Origin: Saprospirales bacterium
Lineage (GTDB): Bacteria > Bacteroidota > Bacteroidia > Chitinophagales > Saprospiraceae
Length of the DNA stretch: 64,000 bases
Direction of reading: 5' to 3'
NCBI GenBank assembly: GCA_007695035.1
Contig: REEO01000050.1
Coordinates: forward strand, 62,001 to 126,000
The translations under genes were made by a program, and so were the position numbers. Within the stretch, counting starts at the first letter, position 1, and each line of letters opens with the position of its first letter. A model generated the notes under the pieces. The model was given only the letters and a program-made list of their open reading frames with translations. It ran no database searches and was not told the DNA's origin. Positions 513 to 9,371 of the stretch are shown here, piece by piece.

Positions 513-1712
513 CTAATCAATATAGTTGGGACTTAAATACACCCACTTTTTACTAACATTTATTAACAGTTGGTCTTCATTGACAAATAATGGGGTCCTG
601 ATACGATTATCATTGATTATCTCGTGAAACAAATGATTGAGTTGATTGGCCTTGAAACTTTTATTATTTTCCTTCAATTCGTACATCCGGCCATCAACCC
701 CACCAATTAACAATAATTTATTCCCGACAGATTTAATCCTGCCAGGGAAGGAAGGGGTGTTTTCAATAGTATCGACAATTTCACCGGAATACTTATTGAG
801 TACCAGGAAAAAATTGGCTTCAGTTGGGTAAATTATTTTGTCCTGAAAAAGTACAGGCCTGGAAGCCAGAGCAACCTGATCCAGGTCTGTTGACCAATCA
901 ACTACATTGTCATGGTGATTAAAAGCAACAATTTTGTTTGTCAAATGCCAAAAGGTCTTCCCGCTTGAAGTGTCGGTTAGAGGCGGCCTTGTCACGCCGT
1001 ATCCCTGAAAATTAATGGCTGACAGAGGAATTGAGTCTGTAGCTCCAAATTCAGTATTCCATCGAAGTAAATAATTTTCAGTTCTATTGTCCGAAATATT
1101 ATATTTTAGAACACTGTTGAATAAGTACTCTGGGTCAAAAGAACAGGTCACAGGGCCTACTGAAATAATCCTTTCATTCTCTGAAGCAGGTATTGAGAGA
1201 ATGGTGTCTTTTTCTCCATTCAATAGGTCGATTGAGAAAAATTGTACGTCATGCTGATTATTGCATGTGACCACGGGATATACAAACCTATCTCCTCCAA
1301 ATAAATTGGCTGAAATTTTCCCTTGAAAAGGGACAGTATCTAAAAGCTCACCTGAATTATGGTCAATTACCAGGAGGTGATCAACCATTGGAAGTATTGT
1401 TAAATTTTCAAAGCTATAAAAGTTTAAATTGGTGTATTGCGCTTCCAGAGAACCACTATTATCCAAAAAACTCCAAACTATCTCCTTTGCCTTAGGATCA
1501 AAGGCCGAAAGGCAATATACTCCATCACAATCTGATGAAATCAACAACAAATTGTCGATATACTCAGGATAGAGGTTATTGCTACTTGCAGCTTTGATAA
1601 AAATTGCCGCGGTGTCCTTATCTGGTTCCTGACAAGATTGAAGAAATACGGAAAGGAAGAAAATAGCCAATCCAATGCCCCATAGAAAAGGCCAGGTTTT
1701 TCTGCTCTGCAA
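513..1712 (-). CDS. Lipoprotein with PQQ-like beta-propeller repeats
   Basis: The protein has 399 aa and starts at a TTG; no ATG lies near the signal peptide. An N-terminal hydrophobic segment ends in the lipobox LQSC (Cys about residue 27), so it should be lipid-anchored. The rest shows recurring beta-propeller blade features, such as LLVIDHNSGELLDTV, FLVLNKYSGEIVDTI and a final LLIGGVDGRMYEL, resembling PQQ-binding/outer-membrane-assembly-like WD propellers. No catalytic residues are evident. It is the last gene of a three-gene minus-strand operon: only 16 bases separate it from the upstream gene. A binding or scaffolding role at the envelope is inference. Confidence 0.7.
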   Translation of the reverse strand: MQSRKTWPFLWGIGLAIFFLSVFLQSCQEPDKDTAAIFIKAASSNNLYPEYIDNLLLISSDCDGVYCLSAFDPKAKEIVWSFLDNSGSLEAQYTNLNFYSFENLTILPMVDHLLVIDHNSGELLDTVPFQGKISANLFGGDRFVYPVVTCNNQHDVQFFSIDLLNGEKDTILSIPASENERIISVGPVTCSFDPEYLFNSVLKYNISDNRTENYLLRWNTEFGATDSIPLSAINFQGYGVTRPPLTDTSSGKTFWHLTNKIVAFNHHDNVVDWSTDLDQVALASRPVLFQDKIIYPTEANFFLVLNKYSGEIVDTIENTPSFPGRIKSVGNKLLLIGGVDGRMYELKENNKSFKANQLNHLFHEIINDNRIRTPLFVNEDQLLINVSKKWVYLSPNYID

Positions 1713-1728
1713 AGCCGGAATTTTTTAT

Positions 1729-3126
1729 TTAGTTTGTGGGCACAATAAAAGCCGCACCTAAAGCACCGGAAAAGATGTTATCCTTGAATTCATCCACTAA
1801 AACCTCCTGGGTTCTACTAGTCATCTGAAAATGATTAGTGTTGGGAAGGTGAATTTCAGCCACCATATTTGACCCTGGAAGCTTCTGTTCTGACTCAGCT
1901 AGTAAACCGTTAGTTAATTCTGCTACAAAAACAGTCGTTGTAACATACTCACCAATTACTAAATTTTGGGAACACCAATTTTGGCAATGGTGGATTGAGT
2001 TGGGATCATTGGAAAAATCCATCTCGCAATCCAACATGCAAAGGTCAATATCTTCCTGAGTTGTCATGTCAACAAATACTTCAGTTACCTCAAATGATCC
2101 ATCAAGCATCATTAGCATCCACTCAGCTTCCTGCAATTGATTTGCAAGTTGACATCTCAACATCCTAGCTAGTTCATTCTCGATTTCTTGTTGGGCCTGA
2201 ATCTCTTGTATTATTCTATTAGTTTCCTGGTTAATATAATTGGATATTGCTGAAAGTGCTGCCCCAGGTGAACCTGAACCAGCCGAGAGAAGAGAACCTG
2301 CAAATCCCAATACATTGGCAAAAAAACCATTGGTATTTCGAATGGTACGCTGAATTTCAAGGTTCTCTATATTTTTTGATTCCTCTCGAATTCTTTCTTC
2401 CTGACATTCCACAAGTTCAGTCCCGTCTCCGATTGAAAACTTCGTATCCAGCATTCTTACCAAAGAAAAATCCTCAACGGTACCATATAGAACGATGTAG
2501 GGGATTGTTGGCAAATAAGCTGGTTTATTTATGTTGAGAATTACATCACTATCATTGCTCAAATCTCCAATAAAATCTTTACCCCCTTCAATGGTATTGA
2601 TCCATGATTTAAATAATCCGGTCACATTGCAATCCTGACAATTGTCACCCAACTTCACGGATTCAATCCTTTCAATAATTTCGGAGACTTTGGATACACC
2701 ATTTGGGGTAGCTAATGTGGCCTGTCCGATTGCAAATGACCCTTGATTGGGTACTCCTGAAAGCACCATAGCAGAGATGTCTGAGTTGAGGTGTTGGGCA
2801 TAGCGCAAGGCAATTCCACCAAATCCGTGACCAATGCCTAGTACGTCACTCCCAGATCGAAGGTTTATTCGATAATCTATATAGTCCGCACCAGCTAAAA
2901 CTCCCTGGCCCCAGGCATTTGGCCACTGATTATCCAATAGCTGATCAAATTGAAATCCATGAAATCCCATCTCCAACCTAAAATGATCCCATCCATTTGA
3001 AGTTTGGCTGGTACCATTGCACCAAACCATATCCCTTTCCTGAACCTGTCCAGTTACATTAGTATTGAGAAGGAGACAAGATAAAAGTAGAAAAACGGGA
3101 AAAAATATGCATTTAAAAAAATTCAT
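1729..3126 (-). CDS. Secreted alpha/beta-hydrolase (lipase-like) protein lacking the nucleophile serine
   Basis: The protein has 465 aa with a Sec signal peptide (about residues 1-26, ending NVTGQ). Residues 30-215 look like a lipase-type alpha/beta hydrolase: a WCNGTSQTSNGW loop, then IGHGFGGIALRY at about 98-109, where the usual GHSxGG elbow has Gly at the serine position (codon GGA). A candidate acid (YGTVEDFS) and a late candidate histidine (PNTNHFQM) are still present. Between them lies an unusual insert: a charged helical segment, a Gly/Ala-rich hydrophobic stretch, a Gln/Glu-rich coiled-coil and a Cys-rich patch (CMLDCEM...HHCQNWC). It sits in an operon with two lipoproteins. Loss of hydrolase activity is inference; the fold call is by motif only. 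Confidence 0.6.
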   Translation of the reverse strand: MNFFKCIFFPVFLLLSCLLLNTNVTGQVQERDMVWCNGTSQTSNGWDHFRLEMGFHGFQFDQLLDNQWPNAWGQGVLAGADYIDYRINLRSGSDVLGIGHGFGGIALRYAQHLNSDISAMVLSGVPNQGSFAIGQATLATPNGVSKVSEIIERIESVKLGDNCQDCNVTGLFKSWINTIEGGKDFIGDLSNDSDVILNINKPAYLPTIPYIVLYGTVEDFSLVRMLDTKFSIGDGTELVECQEERIREESKNIENLEIQRTIRNTNGFFANVLGFAGSLLSAGSGSPGAALSAISNYINQETNRIIQEIQAQQEIENELARMLRCQLANQLQEAEWMLMMLDGSFEVTEVFVDMTTQEDIDLCMLDCEMDFSNDPNSIHHCQNWCSQNLVIGEYVTTTVFVAELTNGLLAESEQKLPGSNMVAEIHLPNTNHFQMTSRTQEVLVDEFKDNIFSGALGAAFIVPTN

Positions 3127-3138
3127 AAGTTTATATTT

Positions 3139-3999
3139 TTAAAGGTTAGTAGTATGGTTAATATTATTTAATTCAGATTGAATCACTATCTCCATTTCGA
3201 CCTCACTAAATGGTGTTTTAAATGGCGTAACATAAAAGGAGTTAATTTTTTTCGGATTCTGTTCGGTTTCGGGTTGAATATAACTTGTTGATTTTGAGAT
3301 CAAACTACCATCGTTCTTGTAGTGAGCAGTTCCGACAATGGACTGTTGGTTTCTGTCAATCAATACATAGGAATAGTTGCCACCTTGCAGATCAAATTTA
3401 ATGCTTGAATAATCGGGCCCATTGTCAACCACATGAAAGCCGGCATCCTTCCAGGCATCCATTACCAGATCAAAATCCTGAGGTGAAAGCAAGACCTCTT
3501 CACTTAAATTATTTGAGAGGTGTACATAATAATTGGCCAATCTTTGACAGAATGGTTCTGCACTGATAATATTATCCTGACTATTGTAATAATTAATTCC
3601 CGAGGAGGAAAATTCCTTTCGTGCAACCTTGAGGTTTTCCGGAGTGACTCTTCTACCAATCACGTTTTTCGGATAAATGGGTTCAGTAGGTAACATAATA
3701 ATTTCTCCTGCAAAATTCCCAAGGGTATCCATTTCAAAAACTACATTTGCCTTCCTGATTTCCGGAACCAAAAGTGTCTTTTCGGAATTGGTTAGGATAG
3801 AGGAATCCTGAGGATTGACAAGCCTGGTATATTTTATGGTTTTCACATTGTAAGATAAGGAAACACCATTGTTGGTTGGAAGGAGAGAAATAATACCATC
3901 AGGTGATTCGTCAATGTCTTTGGAGCAGGACCAAAAACACATAAAGATCCAAAAACACAATAAAACTAAAATTGGCTTTTTCATGATAAATATTTTCAT
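3139..3999 (-). CDS. Lipoprotein of unknown function
   Basis: The protein has 286 aa. An alternative ATG at 3984 gives a more typical signal peptide beginning MKKPILVLLC. The lipobox FWSC is at about residues 22-25. I recognise no family. The mature part is mixed alpha/beta and rather polar, with one conserved-looking aromatic stretch (INYYNSQDN). It is the first gene of a minus-strand operon with the lipase-like protein (12-base gap) and the beta-propeller lipoprotein. A candidate promoter lies just upstream at 4016-4046. Confidence 0.65.
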   Translation of the reverse strand: MKIFIMKKPILVLLCFWIFMCFWSCSKDIDESPDGIISLLPTNNGVSLSYNVKTIKYTRLVNPQDSSILTNSEKTLLVPEIRKANVVFEMDTLGNFAGEIIMLPTEPIYPKNVIGRRVTPENLKVARKEFSSSGINYYNSQDNIISAEPFCQRLANYYVHLSNNLSEEVLLSPQDFDLVMDAWKDAGFHVVDNGPDYSSIKFDLQGGNYSYVLIDRNQQSIVGTAHYKNDGSLISKSTSYIQPETEQNPKKINSFYVTPFKTPFSEVEMEIVIQSELNNINHTTNL

Positions 4000-4015: not shown

Positions 4016-4046
4016 CAAATTTACTAAAATACATAATCATATCCAA
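4016..4046 (-). promoter_or_regulatory. Bacteroidota-type promoter of the three-gene envelope operon
   Basis: On the minus strand TAAATTTG (4023-4016) matches the Bacteroidota -7 consensus TAnnTTTG. A TTG (4046-4044) lies 20 bases upstream, the right spacing for the -33 element. The box is 16 bases upstream of the ATG at 3999. Confidence 0.5.
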
Positions 4047-4442: not shown

Positions 4443-6257
4443 TTATCGCGTTACATTCAATCGCTTTCCAATGTAGAATCCTTCACTTGCTATATTGACG
4501 ATATAGTTTCCGCTGCTCAGACCGGAGACATCCAGGCTAAAGGAATCAAAAGCATCAAAGGTTCGGTTGAGGACCAATCTCCCGGTCATATCGAAAACGC
4601 GAACCTCTACCTGTCCCTGGATTTCAATATCTCCAAGATCAATTCTGAATACATCAGAAGTGGGATTAGGGATCAATTTTATGTCGGATGGATTGATAAC
4701 AATATCGTTCGTAGAAGTCGAGGGACTGAATACGTATTCACCGTTTGAGGCATTGAAGAAAATATCGTACACCCCTGCAACCGGTTGAATGTTGGGTCCA
4801 TCCTGGGTAGCGACTCCCTCGGGAAAATCCTCTGATCCCCAGTTTACGGTCCAGGCAGTATCAGCTCTGAATTTCACTCCCCCATCGTCATCGGGATCGT
4901 AGTCCACGAGCTGCACTTCTGAAGCATTCCATAAGTTGCCATCATTGGGATCTTTGTCCATGAACCAATCAACGGCGCCTCCATCATCTTCTTCAGGCCA
5001 TTCTCCAAAAGGTCCGGAGCGACCGACCAAACTGATTGCATCAAACTCAATGATCTCATCGAACAAATACTCACCGGTGGTGGAATTAAATGTAATTCGG
5101 TATTCCCCTGCAACTATTGGAATATTTACACCGTCCAAAGTGGCAACACCGGAAGGAAAATCAGGTCCGCCCCAGTTGATTTCCCAATCGTTATTTGCTC
5201 TGAATTTTGCCTCACCGTCTGTCAATTCGACTCTCAATCTCCAAACAGAGGGGTTTTCAGGATCCTGCTCCATATCGGAGTCATCATCCCATCCCCCGGG
5301 AGTAGCATCCCCTATTATACTCACCACATCAAAATCTTCCACAATAAGGAAACTGTATTCTAAAGTAGCTACATTAAAACTAACCAGATACTCACCGGCC
5401 TCATCGACCACAATATTATCGCCATCGGGTACAGCAATACCACTGGGAAAGGTATCACCACCCCAGTTAACTGCCCAGTCGTTGTCCGCTCTGAATTTAA
5501 GATCACCTACCACTAGCTCGACAACTCCAGTCCACAAATCGGGATTTGAAGGATCTCGCTGGAGTTGAGTGTCCTCTTCCCAACCTCCGGGAGTAGCATC
5601 TCCAACCACACTTAGGCTATCAAAGCCAATAACCTCGTCGAAAAAGTATTCACCCGATGAAGTGTCAAAGGTAATACTGTAAACCGCGGCCTGAGGAATG
5701 GGTATATTGGGTCCATCCAACTCACCCACCCCGGCGGGAAAATCCTCTGCACCCCAGTTGACAGCCCAATCTCCGCCCTGTCTGAATTTAGCTTCTCCCA
5801 TTTCGAGGGGCATGGTACCAAAAAAAGTACCGGGATTGTCGGCATCGGGGAAGAGAAATACATCTCTGTCCCAATCAAAGCGCGTGGCATCACCAGTTAT
5901 TCCAATATCTCCGTCGTAGTCAAAAAAGTAATCTCCCGTCGCAGAATTCAGCGTGATTTCGTAATTGCCGCCTATGATCTGGAAATTGGGACCATCGAGC
6001 TCTGCTATCCCAATGGGAAGATCAGTACCTCCCCAATTAACATCCCAACTGTCGTCAGCGCGGAACTTCAATTCACCGTCTGCCAGTTCTATTTCGATGG
6101 TCCAAAGATCGGGATTATCAGGATCCTGAACCATAGGCGTACTGGCAGCCCAGTCTTCGGGAGTAGCAGTTCCAATAATGCCTACTGTGTTAAATTGCCC
6201 AAAAACGGCCGAAGAAAAGACCGTTAAAATCGCGAGTAATAGTAGCTGTTTTTTCAT
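4443..6257 (-). CDS. SusE/SusF-like carbohydrate-binding outer-surface protein with T9SS type A sorting domain
   Basis: The protein has 604 aa with a Sec signal peptide ending AVFGQ at residue 21. Five tandem SusE/SusF-type beta-sandwich repeats of about 95 aa follow (about 22-515), each with a GDATPGGW-like start and a KFRADNxWxVNWG core. The last about 80 residues are a T9SS type A sorting domain (KLIPNPTSDVFRIDL ... GRLVL ... LSSGNYIVNI). SusE/F proteins bind glycans at the cell surface next to SusC/D. Unlike Bacteroides SusE/F it has no lipobox, so T9SS export is the likely route. It is transcribed divergently from susC over 117 bases, and its 3' end carries a hairpin terminator. The ligand cannot be told from sequence. 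Confidence 0.85.
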   Translation of the reverse strand: MKKQLLLLAILTVFSSAVFGQFNTVGIIGTATPEDWAASTPMVQDPDNPDLWTIEIELADGELKFRADDSWDVNWGGTDLPIGIAELDGPNFQIIGGNYEITLNSATGDYFFDYDGDIGITGDATRFDWDRDVFLFPDADNPGTFFGTMPLEMGEAKFRQGGDWAVNWGAEDFPAGVGELDGPNIPIPQAAVYSITFDTSSGEYFFDEVIGFDSLSVVGDATPGGWEEDTQLQRDPSNPDLWTGVVELVVGDLKFRADNDWAVNWGGDTFPSGIAVPDGDNIVVDEAGEYLVSFNVATLEYSFLIVEDFDVVSIIGDATPGGWDDDSDMEQDPENPSVWRLRVELTDGEAKFRANNDWEINWGGPDFPSGVATLDGVNIPIVAGEYRITFNSTTGEYLFDEIIEFDAISLVGRSGPFGEWPEEDDGGAVDWFMDKDPNDGNLWNASEVQLVDYDPDDDGGVKFRADTAWTVNWGSEDFPEGVATQDGPNIQPVAGVYDIFFNASNGEYVFSPSTSTNDIVINPSDIKLIPNPTSDVFRIDLGDIEIQGQVEVRVFDMTGRLVLNRTFDAFDSFSLDVSGLSSGNYIVNIASEGFYIGKRLNVTR

Positions 6258-6374: not shown

Positions 6375-9371
6375 ATGATACCAAACTGTACAAAAAACCT
6401 ACTTGGATATTGGCTCTCCGGCCTGATTTTGCTGGCTTCGACCACTGTTTTGGCACAGACTCCCATCACGGGTACTGTGACAGGCAGTGAAGATGGATTG
6501 CCATTAATTTCTGCCACAGTTCAGGACCCGGATAATCCATCCATTGGAACCGTAACGGATTTTGATGGCAACTACTCCATAGTGCCGGGACAAAACACAA
6601 CTCACCTGCAATTTAGCTATGTGGGATATGAAAGTCAACGCATTGAGATAGGTGATCAAACTGAGATTAATGTCGTACTTTCTCCTGGAAGTCTGCTGGG
6701 TGAGGTGGTCATCATTGGTTACGGAACCGTGGAAAGAGAAGATGTTACTGGCTCAGTTCAGACAGTTGAGGCGCGGGATTTCAACCAGGGTGCCATTACC
6801 AGCCCACAAGAGTTGCTTTCGGGGAAAGTGCCCGGAGTTACTGTAACCACCGGCGGCGGTGGACCGGATGAAGGTGCTCAAATCCGAATAAGAGGTCTAT
6901 CCTCGTTGGACGCATCAAACGACCCCCTGATAGTGGTGGATGGCATCCCCCTTGCATCGGGAGGTGTTTCGGGCAACCGAAATCCTCTAAACATCATTAA
7001 TCCTCGGGATATAGAAAGCATTACAGTGCTCAAAGATGCCTCGGCCACAGCCATATACGGCAGCAGGGGCTCAGCCGGTGTCATTCTTATTACTACCAAG
7101 AGGGGAAGTTTTGGAACGCCAACTCAAATTTCCTATGATGCCAATTTCTCAATCGGAACTGCTATTACTAAGGTGGATGTTTTGTCGCCAACGGAATTCA
7201 GGCAGGTGATGGAGGACCAGGAACCCAATCAACTGGACTTGATGGGCGATGCCAACAACGAATGGCAGGATGAAATTTACAGAAATGCCGTTGGCACTGA
7301 TCACAATATCGGTGTCAGCGGAAGCATAACGGAAACTTTCCCCTATAGGGTTTCTTTGGGCTACACGCACAAGGAGGGAATTTTGCTCACCGATCAGTTT
7401 GAGCGATACACTGCGGGAATCAATCTAACACCTCACTTTTTTGACAGCAGGCTGCAGCTAAATGTAGGAATAAGAGGAATGCTCAACAAAAACAAATTTG
7501 CGGAACGAGGCGCGATAGGCGCAGCTGTCAGTTTTGATCCCACGAGAGAAAAGTTTGATGAGGAGAGTGAATTTAGTGGGTACAGTGTATGGACCCTACC
7601 AAACGGCAATCCCAACCTTCTGGCCCCAACCAATCCCATTTCTCTTCTCGACCGCGACCTCAGGCAGGACAATTCAGAAGTGACTCGTTATATTATTAAT
7701 GCATCGGCAGATTATCGCTTTGGGTTTCTACCCACACTTAGGGCTACCTTAAATCTCGGGTACGATTACTCTCAGGGAGAAGGAGGTGTTGATATTGTGG
7801 GCAACAATATGGTGGCCTACAGTTTTAACCAAAATACTGGCGGTGGCTTAGTTAGTACCTATGACGAGCGCAGGAAAAACGAGTTGATTGAATTCTATAT
7901 GAATTACGGGGAGAAGTTCGGAGACCACTCCCTGGATGCAATGGCCGGGTATTCGTGGCAGCGATTTTATGATAAAAATTCTTTCTTCAGATCGGATGTC
8001 GCCATGACCCCGGCTGAAACACAACAACAAGATGACATTGCCCGTGAGATGTATTTATTATCGCTGTTTGGCAGGGTGAATTACACTTTCAGGGACCGGT
8101 ATTTACTCACTTTTACACTTAGAGGCGATGCCACTTCCAGATTCGCATCGGAGAACCGATGGGGTGTTTTCCCCGCTTTGGCCGGGGCTTACAAAGTTTT
8201 TGAAAACGATGACCGATTTTTCAACGATCTCAAGTTGAGAGCCGGATGGGGAATCACAGGTCAACAGGAAATCGGTGGATATTATATTTACCAGGCTGTT
8301 TATGAAGAGAGTTTAGATAATGCGCGCTACCGCTTTGGAGATGATTTTGTTACCACCATACGCCCGAACGGCTACGACAGGAATATCAAATGGGAAGAAA
8401 CCACCACCTACAACGTGGGATTGGATTTTTCCATAATAGCAGATCGATTACAAGGAACCTTTGATCTGTACAGACGCGACACCAGGGATTTGCTTGGACT
8501 GGTCGATGTACCGGCGGGAACCAATCTCACCAATAGAATATTCACCAATGTTGGAAATATGAGGTCAGAGGGTGTAGAGCTGGCAATCTTCACTAGTCCG
8601 GTGGTAAGAAGAGATTTCCGCTGGGACGTCAGCACCAATGTCAACTACAACACCAATGAGATTACCAGACTGACCGCCACCAACGACCCCGACTTCCCGG
8701 GAGTGGAAATAGGTGGTATTTCAGGAGGGGTGGGCTCCAATATTCAGATTCACTCCGTGGGCCACGAGCCGTTTTCTTTTTATGTATTTGAACAACAGTA
8801 TGACGAGGAGGGCAATTTGATTGAGGGTGAATTCAAAGACCGAAACGGTGACGGTACAGTTAGCGACGATGACAAATACCGTTTCAGAAGTCCGGCTCCG
8901 AGAGTCACCTGGGGTATAACCAGTAATTTTACCTGGAAGGGTTTTGAGTTTTCTTTGGCCGGCAGGGCGCATTTTGGAAATTACGTATATAACAATGTGG
9001 CCACAGACCTGGGTCATTTTGACCAACTCTACCACCCCACCAACTACCTGTCCAACATACACCGCTCGGCATTTGACAACAACATTCAAAGACAGAGCAA
9101 TGTGTTGTTCAGCGATCATTTTGTGGCCGATGCCAGTTTTTTCAGAATGGACCACATAACCATTGGATACAATTTCAACACCCTCAATTTAGGAGGAAGA
9201 AATTTGACAGAGACAATAGGATTGAATCACCTAAGGATTTATGCAACTGTACAGAACCCCTTCATCATAACTTCCTATGATGGATTGGACCCGGAAATTC
9301 CCAACGGGATTGACAACAATTTCTATCCGAGACCGAGAACATTTCTCATGGGTCTTTCTGTAACTTTTTAA
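6375..9371 (+). CDS. SusC/RagA-family TonB-dependent outer-membrane transporter
   Basis: The protein has 998 aa, the usual size for SusC. It has a signal peptide ending VLAQ (about residue 28), a CarboxypepD-regulatory-like domain (PITGTVTGSEDGLPLISATV, then GNYSI and VGYESQRIEI), and a TonB-box-like GEVVIIGYGTV at about 110-120. A plug domain follows (GKVPGVTV, IRIRGLSS, DPLIVVDGIP, ITVLKDASATAIYGSRG) and then a 22-strand-type barrel ending in aromatic residues (LMGLSVTF). It should import glycans or peptides captured by SusD, powered by TonB. susD follows after 19 bases. The substrate is unknown because no degradative enzyme is adjacent. Confidence 0.95.
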   Translation: MIPNCTKNLLGYWLSGLILLASTTVLAQTPITGTVTGSEDGLPLISATVQDPDNPSIGTVTDFDGNYSIVPGQNTTHLQFSYVGYESQRIEIGDQTEINVVLSPGSLLGEVVIIGYGTVEREDVTGSVQTVEARDFNQGAITSPQELLSGKVPGVTVTTGGGGPDEGAQIRIRGLSSLDASNDPLIVVDGIPLASGGVSGNRNPLNIINPRDIESITVLKDASATAIYGSRGSAGVILITTKRGSFGTPTQISYDANFSIGTAITKVDVLSPTEFRQVMEDQEPNQLDLMGDANNEWQDEIYRNAVGTDHNIGVSGSITETFPYRVSLGYTHKEGILLTDQFERYTAGINLTPHFFDSRLQLNVGIRGMLNKNKFAERGAIGAAVSFDPTREKFDEESEFSGYSVWTLPNGNPNLLAPTNPISLLDRDLRQDNSEVTRYIINASADYRFGFLPTLRATLNLGYDYSQGEGGVDIVGNNMVAYSFNQNTGGGLVSTYDERRKNELIEFYMNYGEKFGDHSLDAMAGYSWQRFYDKNSFFRSDVAMTPAETQQQDDIAREMYLLSLFGRVNYTFRDRYLLTFTLRGDATSRFASENRWGVFPALAGAYKVFENDDRFFNDLKLRAGWGITGQQEIGGYYIYQAVYEESLDNARYRFGDDFVTTIRPNGYDRNIKWEETTTYNVGLDFSIIADRLQGTFDLYRRDTRDLLGLVDVPAGTNLTNRIFTNVGNMRSEGVELAIFTSPVVRRDFRWDVSTNVNYNTNEITRLTATNDPDFPGVEIGGISGGVGSNIQIHSVGHEPFSFYVFEQQYDEEGNLIEGEFKDRNGDGTVSDDDKYRFRSPAPRVTWGITSNFTWKGFEFSLAGRAHFGNYVYNNVATDLGHFDQLYHPTNYLSNIHRSAFDNNIQRQSNVLFSDHFVADASFFRMDHITIGYNFNTLNLGGRNLTETIGLNHLRIYATVQNPFIITSYDGLDPEIPNGIDNNFYPRPRTFLMGLSVTF

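Follow-up and report, generated by a model that had tools for sequence, protein, structure and literature searches.

A lipase-family protein that may have become a binding subunit within a conserved three-gene envelope module of Bacteroidota

What would keep a lipase-like protein in an envelope operon when the residues that make a lipase are missing from it? The question is raised by a 64 kb stretch of DNA from a Saprospirales bacterium (contig C62, positions 62001–126000, from a genome assembly of 107 contigs totaling 3.35 Mb), hereafter the window, in which positions are counted from its first letter. Three minus-strand open reading frames (ORFs) of 286, 465, and 399 amino acids span positions 3999 to 513 and encode, in this order, a small lipoprotein (A), a secreted lipase-like protein of putative alpha/beta-hydrolase fold (B), and a beta-propeller lipoprotein (C), with gaps of 12 bases between A and B and 16 bases between B and C. 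A preliminary description of this DNA had proposed three tightly packed genes behind one promoter; the ORFs, the gaps, and the promoter were all found, and the operon is real, although its minus-strand orientation had gone unmentioned. The answer favored here, to which we give an even chance, is that B is the lipase of a surface module turned into a non-catalytic binding subunit, and that A, B, and C form this module at the outer membrane.

Gene B (1729–3126, minus strand; leave-one-out profile E 1.5e-116) begins with a signal-peptide-like N-terminus. Alignment and codon reading place Gly101 (GGA, 2824–2826, minus strand), within GHGFGG, at the position of the nucleophile, so that neither the Ser of a G-x-S-x-G elbow nor the Asp of relatives, a feature of Asp-nucleophile hydrolases, is present there. 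The place of the catalytic acid is occupied by Asn406 (AAC, 1909–1911, minus strand) within TNGLL, where the aligned relatives have Asp, mostly as DG. The third triad residue is retained: His432 (CAT, 1831–1833, minus strand), in NHFQ, is invariant across 15 aligned B proteins. Kinship to PGAP1-like and triacylglycerol lipases (PDB 1qge, 1tah, and 1cvl) is nonetheless visible, as the elbow and a PNxGS stretch align at E 0.0012, and the PGAP1-like family PF07819 matches two of 15 B members, best at 3.2e-7 in L045, a relative with Ser at the elbow (Ser-type). Ser-type B relatives also share the acid DG and the NH motif with lipases. In contrast to lipases, the window's B has its Ser and Asp replaced by Gly and Asn, carries a long insert with conserved cysteines (approximately residues 235–385), and matches no protein family above a cut-off. 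With both nucleophile and acid missing, no lipase activity is expected of it, and a reading of it as a lipase was rejected; the preliminary description, which spoke of a secreted "lipase-like" protein, had missed this loss. Matches to CMAS and cyclopropane synthases (E 0.11 and 0.0046), covering only ~40 residues around the elbow, were set aside.

Relatives of B were sought at one genome per species, many of them incomplete metagenome assemblies. With the window's B as query, three other genomes among 60 relatives matched (G001, G004, and G034), while a profile of four B proteins matched 17 of 298 family genomes at E 0.001 and 18 of 396 order genomes, two samples that overlap. Strong full-length matches are confined to the window's family, Saprospiraceae, and the clade set comprises 17 loci in 14 genomes. 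Gene A is the immediate neighbor ahead of B at 16 of these 17 loci, the contig ending inside B at the other (L037), and C lies directly after B at 15. Leave-one-out profiles from which near sisters were also omitted recover A at 2.4e-20 to 1.4e-88, B at 2.5e-41 to 5.1e-145, and C at 9.2e-9 to 7.2e-104 or better. The A-B-C order recurs down to 30% identity and below, and since the surrounding genes vary from locus to locus, it is the unit that is conserved and not its neighborhood. One genome (G516; L060, 5606–13191) has three tandem copies of B, interspersed with a transposase-like gene, between a single A and a single C. A was further searched in 30 genomes, of which 16 had been chosen for B (14 with a strong A, G160 with a B cut by the contig end, and G023 with a distant B) and 14 had no window-type B match. 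It occurs at 21 places, each beside a B; of these matches, 17 are strong (E 5.7e-34 or better) and four weak. Nowhere in the 30 genomes was an A found apart from a B, and the 14 genomes without window-type B have none. Because 14 of the 17 strong A proteins were rows of the profile, the informative part is that none was found elsewhere. Two of the 14 (G003 and G005) carry a Ser-type cassette in which the protein at the A position has no recognizable kinship to A. One conserved unit makes a common job for the three genes, as had been suggested, likely, and the refuting condition set in the preliminary description, a separate occurrence of the genes in relatives, did not hold.

How B came to its present residues was read from the elbow, acid, and His columns of a single alignment. 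Ser, Asp, and His occur jointly in 13 of 18 Ser-type rows; of the remainder, four have C-terminal columns that are missing or unaligned (L088, L091, L096, and L099), and L069 is an unrelated lipase. All three residues are also present in twelve additional Ser-type rows. Most lineages outside the Saprospiraceae clade keep this triad in B, which there is probably an esterase or lipase. Within the clade the elbow is readable at 16 of the 17 loci, with Asp at 12 and Gly at four (the window, L007, L008, and L042). L042 (G175) reads Gly, Asp, His, and the window, L007, and L008, all of one genus, read Gly, Asn, His. The nucleophile would have become Asp in the clade and Gly in the window's subclade, with the acid also lost in the window's genus. 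The elbow codons are GGA, GGG, GGG, and GGC for Gly, GAT or GAC for Asp, and AGT or AGC for Ser in the five read, which puts Asp and Gly one base apart and Ser and Asp two. In a tree of 30 rows, support is 100/100 for the split between the Ser rows and the Asp and Gly rows, and 99/99 for a single clade of Gly rows; with the two triad columns masked (28 rows), these values are 100/100 and 99/100. Gly may have arisen from Asp: a single clade of Asp rows is not rejected (approximately unbiased (AU) test, p 0.060), though in a later tree the Gly rows fall inside the Asp rows (96/88).

The Asp loci invite a different reading. Epoxide hydrolases and haloalkane dehalogenases employ an Asp nucleophile, and the Asp-type B resembles them in having Asp for Ser at the elbow, at the 12 clade loci and at L055. 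The Asp form could therefore be an active enzyme with an Asp nucleophile, its chemistry having changed first and been lost later in the window's subclade; we consider this rather unlikely. Congruent with it, both the acid Asp and the His are intact at all 12 readable Asp loci. Asp also recurs at L055, a locus of another family where A and C adjoin B, and L055 groups with the Ser rows apart from the clade (95/87), so that its Asp would represent a second origin on that tree. That Asp rather than random residues stands at the elbow suggests selection, and a later passage from Asp to Gly takes a single base. However, on a tree with several long branches, the AU test does not reject a common origin for L055 and the Asp/Gly set (p 0.233), and L055 has AQD instead of HD. 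In addition, sequence searches link B to no epoxide hydrolase or dehalogenase, and an Asp-nucleophile enzyme leaves the window's own B, with Gly and Asn, unexplained.

The binding-subunit reading raises the question whether B was kept after its losses. L007 and L008 share the Gly and Asn of the window, and for A, B, and C the NG86 ratios of nonsynonymous to synonymous substitution rates (dN/dS) between the two are 0.073, 0.172, and 0.250 (dS 1.15, 1.09, and 0.59, respectively); comparisons of either with the window are saturated. In this one pair B was therefore kept after the losses, and it still seems to be under purifying selection. A protein that has lost two of its catalytic residues yet is seemingly under selection points to binding rather than cutting, and the window's B probably binds.

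The same unit extends beyond the family, a spread that the preliminary description had missed. Class and phylum searches were run at E 1e-6 with the window's own genome included. At class level the B profile matched five of 395 genomes and a profile of three Ser-type B proteins nine of 395; the phylum search matched 18 of 395. Among 34 B matches, distant or weak, whose surrounding genes were read, C adjoins B at 23, two are cut by the contig end (L133 and L152), and C is absent beside B at nine (L069, L138, L139, L156–L159, L097, and L100); some of the distant matches were accordingly set aside as unrelated alpha/beta-hydrolases. Another 27 loci with short flanks have C at six only (L050, L055, L076, L140, L141, and L142). 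One C profile included eight of the distant C proteins on which it was scored, and profiles omitting them recover the C of L081, L082, L083, L131, L135, L136, and L137 at 4e-15 to 9e-34. The order is C-B in L096 and L099. A is recognizable in L045, L068, L131, L132, L133, L134, L050, L055, and L152, and by profile–profile comparison in L091/L092 (98.0%, 2.3e-13) and L085 (83.1%, 9e-6). For the A-position proteins of L070/L082/L083, L087/L088/L090, L081, and L084 (19.6%, 4.3%, 1.3%, and 0.2%), kinship to A was not found, the control comparison of A with C giving 28.8% over 23 signal-peptide columns. By the same method, B of the Asp/Gly type matches B of the Ser type over 397 columns (99.2%, E 2.7e-19), and C of the two kinds of cassette matches over 366 columns (99.6%, E 3.5e-24).

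The window's genome itself has a second cassette with a Ser-type B (L081). Such a copy is present in eight of the 14 Asp/Gly-type genomes (G000, G004, G175, G272, G290, G505, G516, and G543) and was not seen in the other six (G001, G034, G154, G160, G263, and G297); on that account, constant regulation of a live copy by the dead one was given up as an idea. Taken in its widest form, the reading would be of a module in several families of Bacteroidota in which the lipase Ser turned to Asp twice and one lineage lost the triad while its operon was kept, with an intact Ser-type copy in the same cell, together a series from enzyme, perhaps by way of an altered chemistry, to surface binding; this broader proposal is put forward tentatively. 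No description of a lipase–propeller–lipoprotein module of Bacteroidota was found in the open-licence papers searched.

Where the module would act is indicated chiefly by A (3139–3999, minus strand; leave-one-out profile E 4.4e-62, its two closest relatives also being omitted). Its start is ATG 3999 or, likelier, the alternative ATG 3984, and it bears a lipobox, FWSC (Cys codon 3925–3927), followed by SKDIDE. A diverges fast, has no match in Pfam or NCBIfam, and finds only chance matches among solved structures. In Capnocytophaga, the published optimum of the lipoprotein export signal (LES) is C-X-K-(D/E)2-X (PMC5080379). A partly resembles surface lipoproteins of Bacteroidota bearing this signal: where the N-terminus is visible (16 A proteins), nine, including that of the window, have K at +3 and D/E at +4 after the Cys. 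It departs from the optimum in that the full motif occurs in only two of the 16 (L038 and L043); in the window's CSKDIDE, the K and one acidic residue are in place and the second acidic residue is shifted. The sorting domain of the type IX secretion system (T9SS), PF18962, has no match in the three window proteins. Elsewhere, the A-position protein carries this domain above the cut-off (L081, L070, L082, L131, and L136) or just below it (L083 and L084), and in L131 a single protein joins an A domain (74–307) to a T9SS tail (334–398). From the lipobox, the LES-like residues, and these tails, we infer that A faces outside, and the outer-surface or envelope site named in the preliminary description is upheld indirectly, through the lipoboxes and the A domain fused to a T9SS tail. 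A-B-C would then be an envelope module of Bacteroidota built around the secreted lipase-family protein B, most likely at the outer face of the outer membrane, where A (a lipoprotein, or T9SS-tailed in other cassettes) and the propeller lipoprotein C may anchor or hold B. A non-catalytic B could bind a lipid or an ester-like ligand, or else bridge A and C as a scaffold. The inactivity of B, the surface location, complex formation, and the ligand are all inferred.

C (513–1712, minus strand; leave-one-out profile E 2e-60) starts at a TTG, the sole ATG, GTG, or TTG downstream of the in-frame stop at 1727–1725. Its lipobox, LQSC (Cys codon 1632–1634), is imperfect and not matched by the lipobox pattern. 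On its own the window's C gives only a weak propeller match (PF13570 at 2.4e-4); across the family, PF13570 is found in 12 of 14 members and PF13360 in nine of 14, and the solved structures matched are BamB chains, at 1.6e-13 and weaker, and PQQ propellers. This membership among the PQQ/BamB-type propellers had escaped the preliminary description. The likeness is of family level, and an identification of C as BamB was rejected: C scores far below the cut-offs (10 bits against 423 for the window, 43 against 285 for L036), and at the loci seen it is tied to B and not to the Bam machinery.

Could A or C instead be a foldase or assembly factor for B, in the manner of a lipase-specific foldase or of BamB, without forming any lasting complex? 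Among solved structures, B is closest to foldase-dependent lipases (E 0.0012), and C belongs to the BamB-type propellers. However, C reaches only 10 bits against a BamB cut-off of 423, A matches no solved protein, and a foldase need not be retained beside a lipase that has stopped working. We regard this explanation as improbable. Still less credible is a toxin–immunity pair, in which B would be an antibacterial toxin of the lipase type and the lipoproteins A and C would confer immunity. Lipase-like alpha/beta-hydrolases do occur as toxin domains, but the immunity proteins of the same survey include no propellers and one lipoprotein only (PMC3482391). The tandem duplication of B in G516 and the fast divergence of A would suit such a pair, yet a toxin should retain its catalytic residues and the window's B has lost two. 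Moreover, PADLOC models gave no match beyond chance among the window proteins (B only, E 0.017), and a delivery domain was not seen on B. The least probable explanation, that the operon is a decaying, functionless remnant, has on its side the lost triad residues, patchiness in the genus, and two interrupted B copies in relatives, against which stand the three open frames and intact promoter of the window and the low dN/dS of all three genes between L007 and L008.

Several observations weigh against the binding-subunit reading itself. B shows neither a visible lipobox nor a T9SS tail that would account for a route to the outer face. The AlphaFold2 models of A and B are poor (predicted local distance difference test (pLDDT) scores of 38 and 32), owing to only three input sequences each. 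C is missing at L010 and L037, both of one genus. Two of the 17 clade B genes, in G034 (contig C40; L009, 10447) and G290 (contig C176; L043, 4945), are interrupted by an in-frame stop or split into two ORFs, and the clade cassette is present in only three of eight genomes of the window's genus; the interrupted copies and this patchiness mark the cassette as dispensable. The dN/dS values come from a single pair with high dS to which the window does not belong.

Were the reading correct, living relatives would hold a stepwise natural record of the passage of a secreted lipase into a pseudoenzyme inside an intact operon, with Ser, Asp, and Gly stages. It would also give a name to a conserved lipase–propeller–lipoprotein unit of the Bacteroidota envelope with a testable role, and an annotation of the window's B as a lipase would be wrong.

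The Bacteroidota-type promoter of the operon (4016–4046, minus strand) consists of TTG(G) at 4046–4043, 19 bases, and TAAATTTG at 4023–4016, and its 3′ end lies 16 bases ahead of the first ATG of gene A. The pattern TTG-N19..22-TANNTTTG has seven matches on both strands of the window, of which this is the only one below 7000; a sigma-70 scan, with 27 sites against 17 expected, is uninformative here. The next gene upstream (4443–6257), on the same strand but 443 bases off and of a different kind, encodes four SusE/F-type domains and a T9SS sorting tail in a single fused protein. Divergent to it runs a plus-strand gene for a SusC-like TonB-dependent receptor (6375–9371), and the two are a polysaccharide-uptake locus adjoining the operon.

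Variations on the cassette were seen at a few loci. In L008 (3643–5232) the C frame stays open ahead of the gene over some 139 repeat-rich residues that begin with an ATG, although translation probably starts further in, and C is tandemly duplicated behind a Ser-type B in L083, L130, and L154. In two genera, a pair of extra genes of ~270 and ~840 amino acids stands ahead of A-B-C (L036, 731–4170; L038, 565–3995). Those of L036 have no match in Pfam; between the two loci the pair is 36% and 34% identical, and the large protein is Cys-rich.

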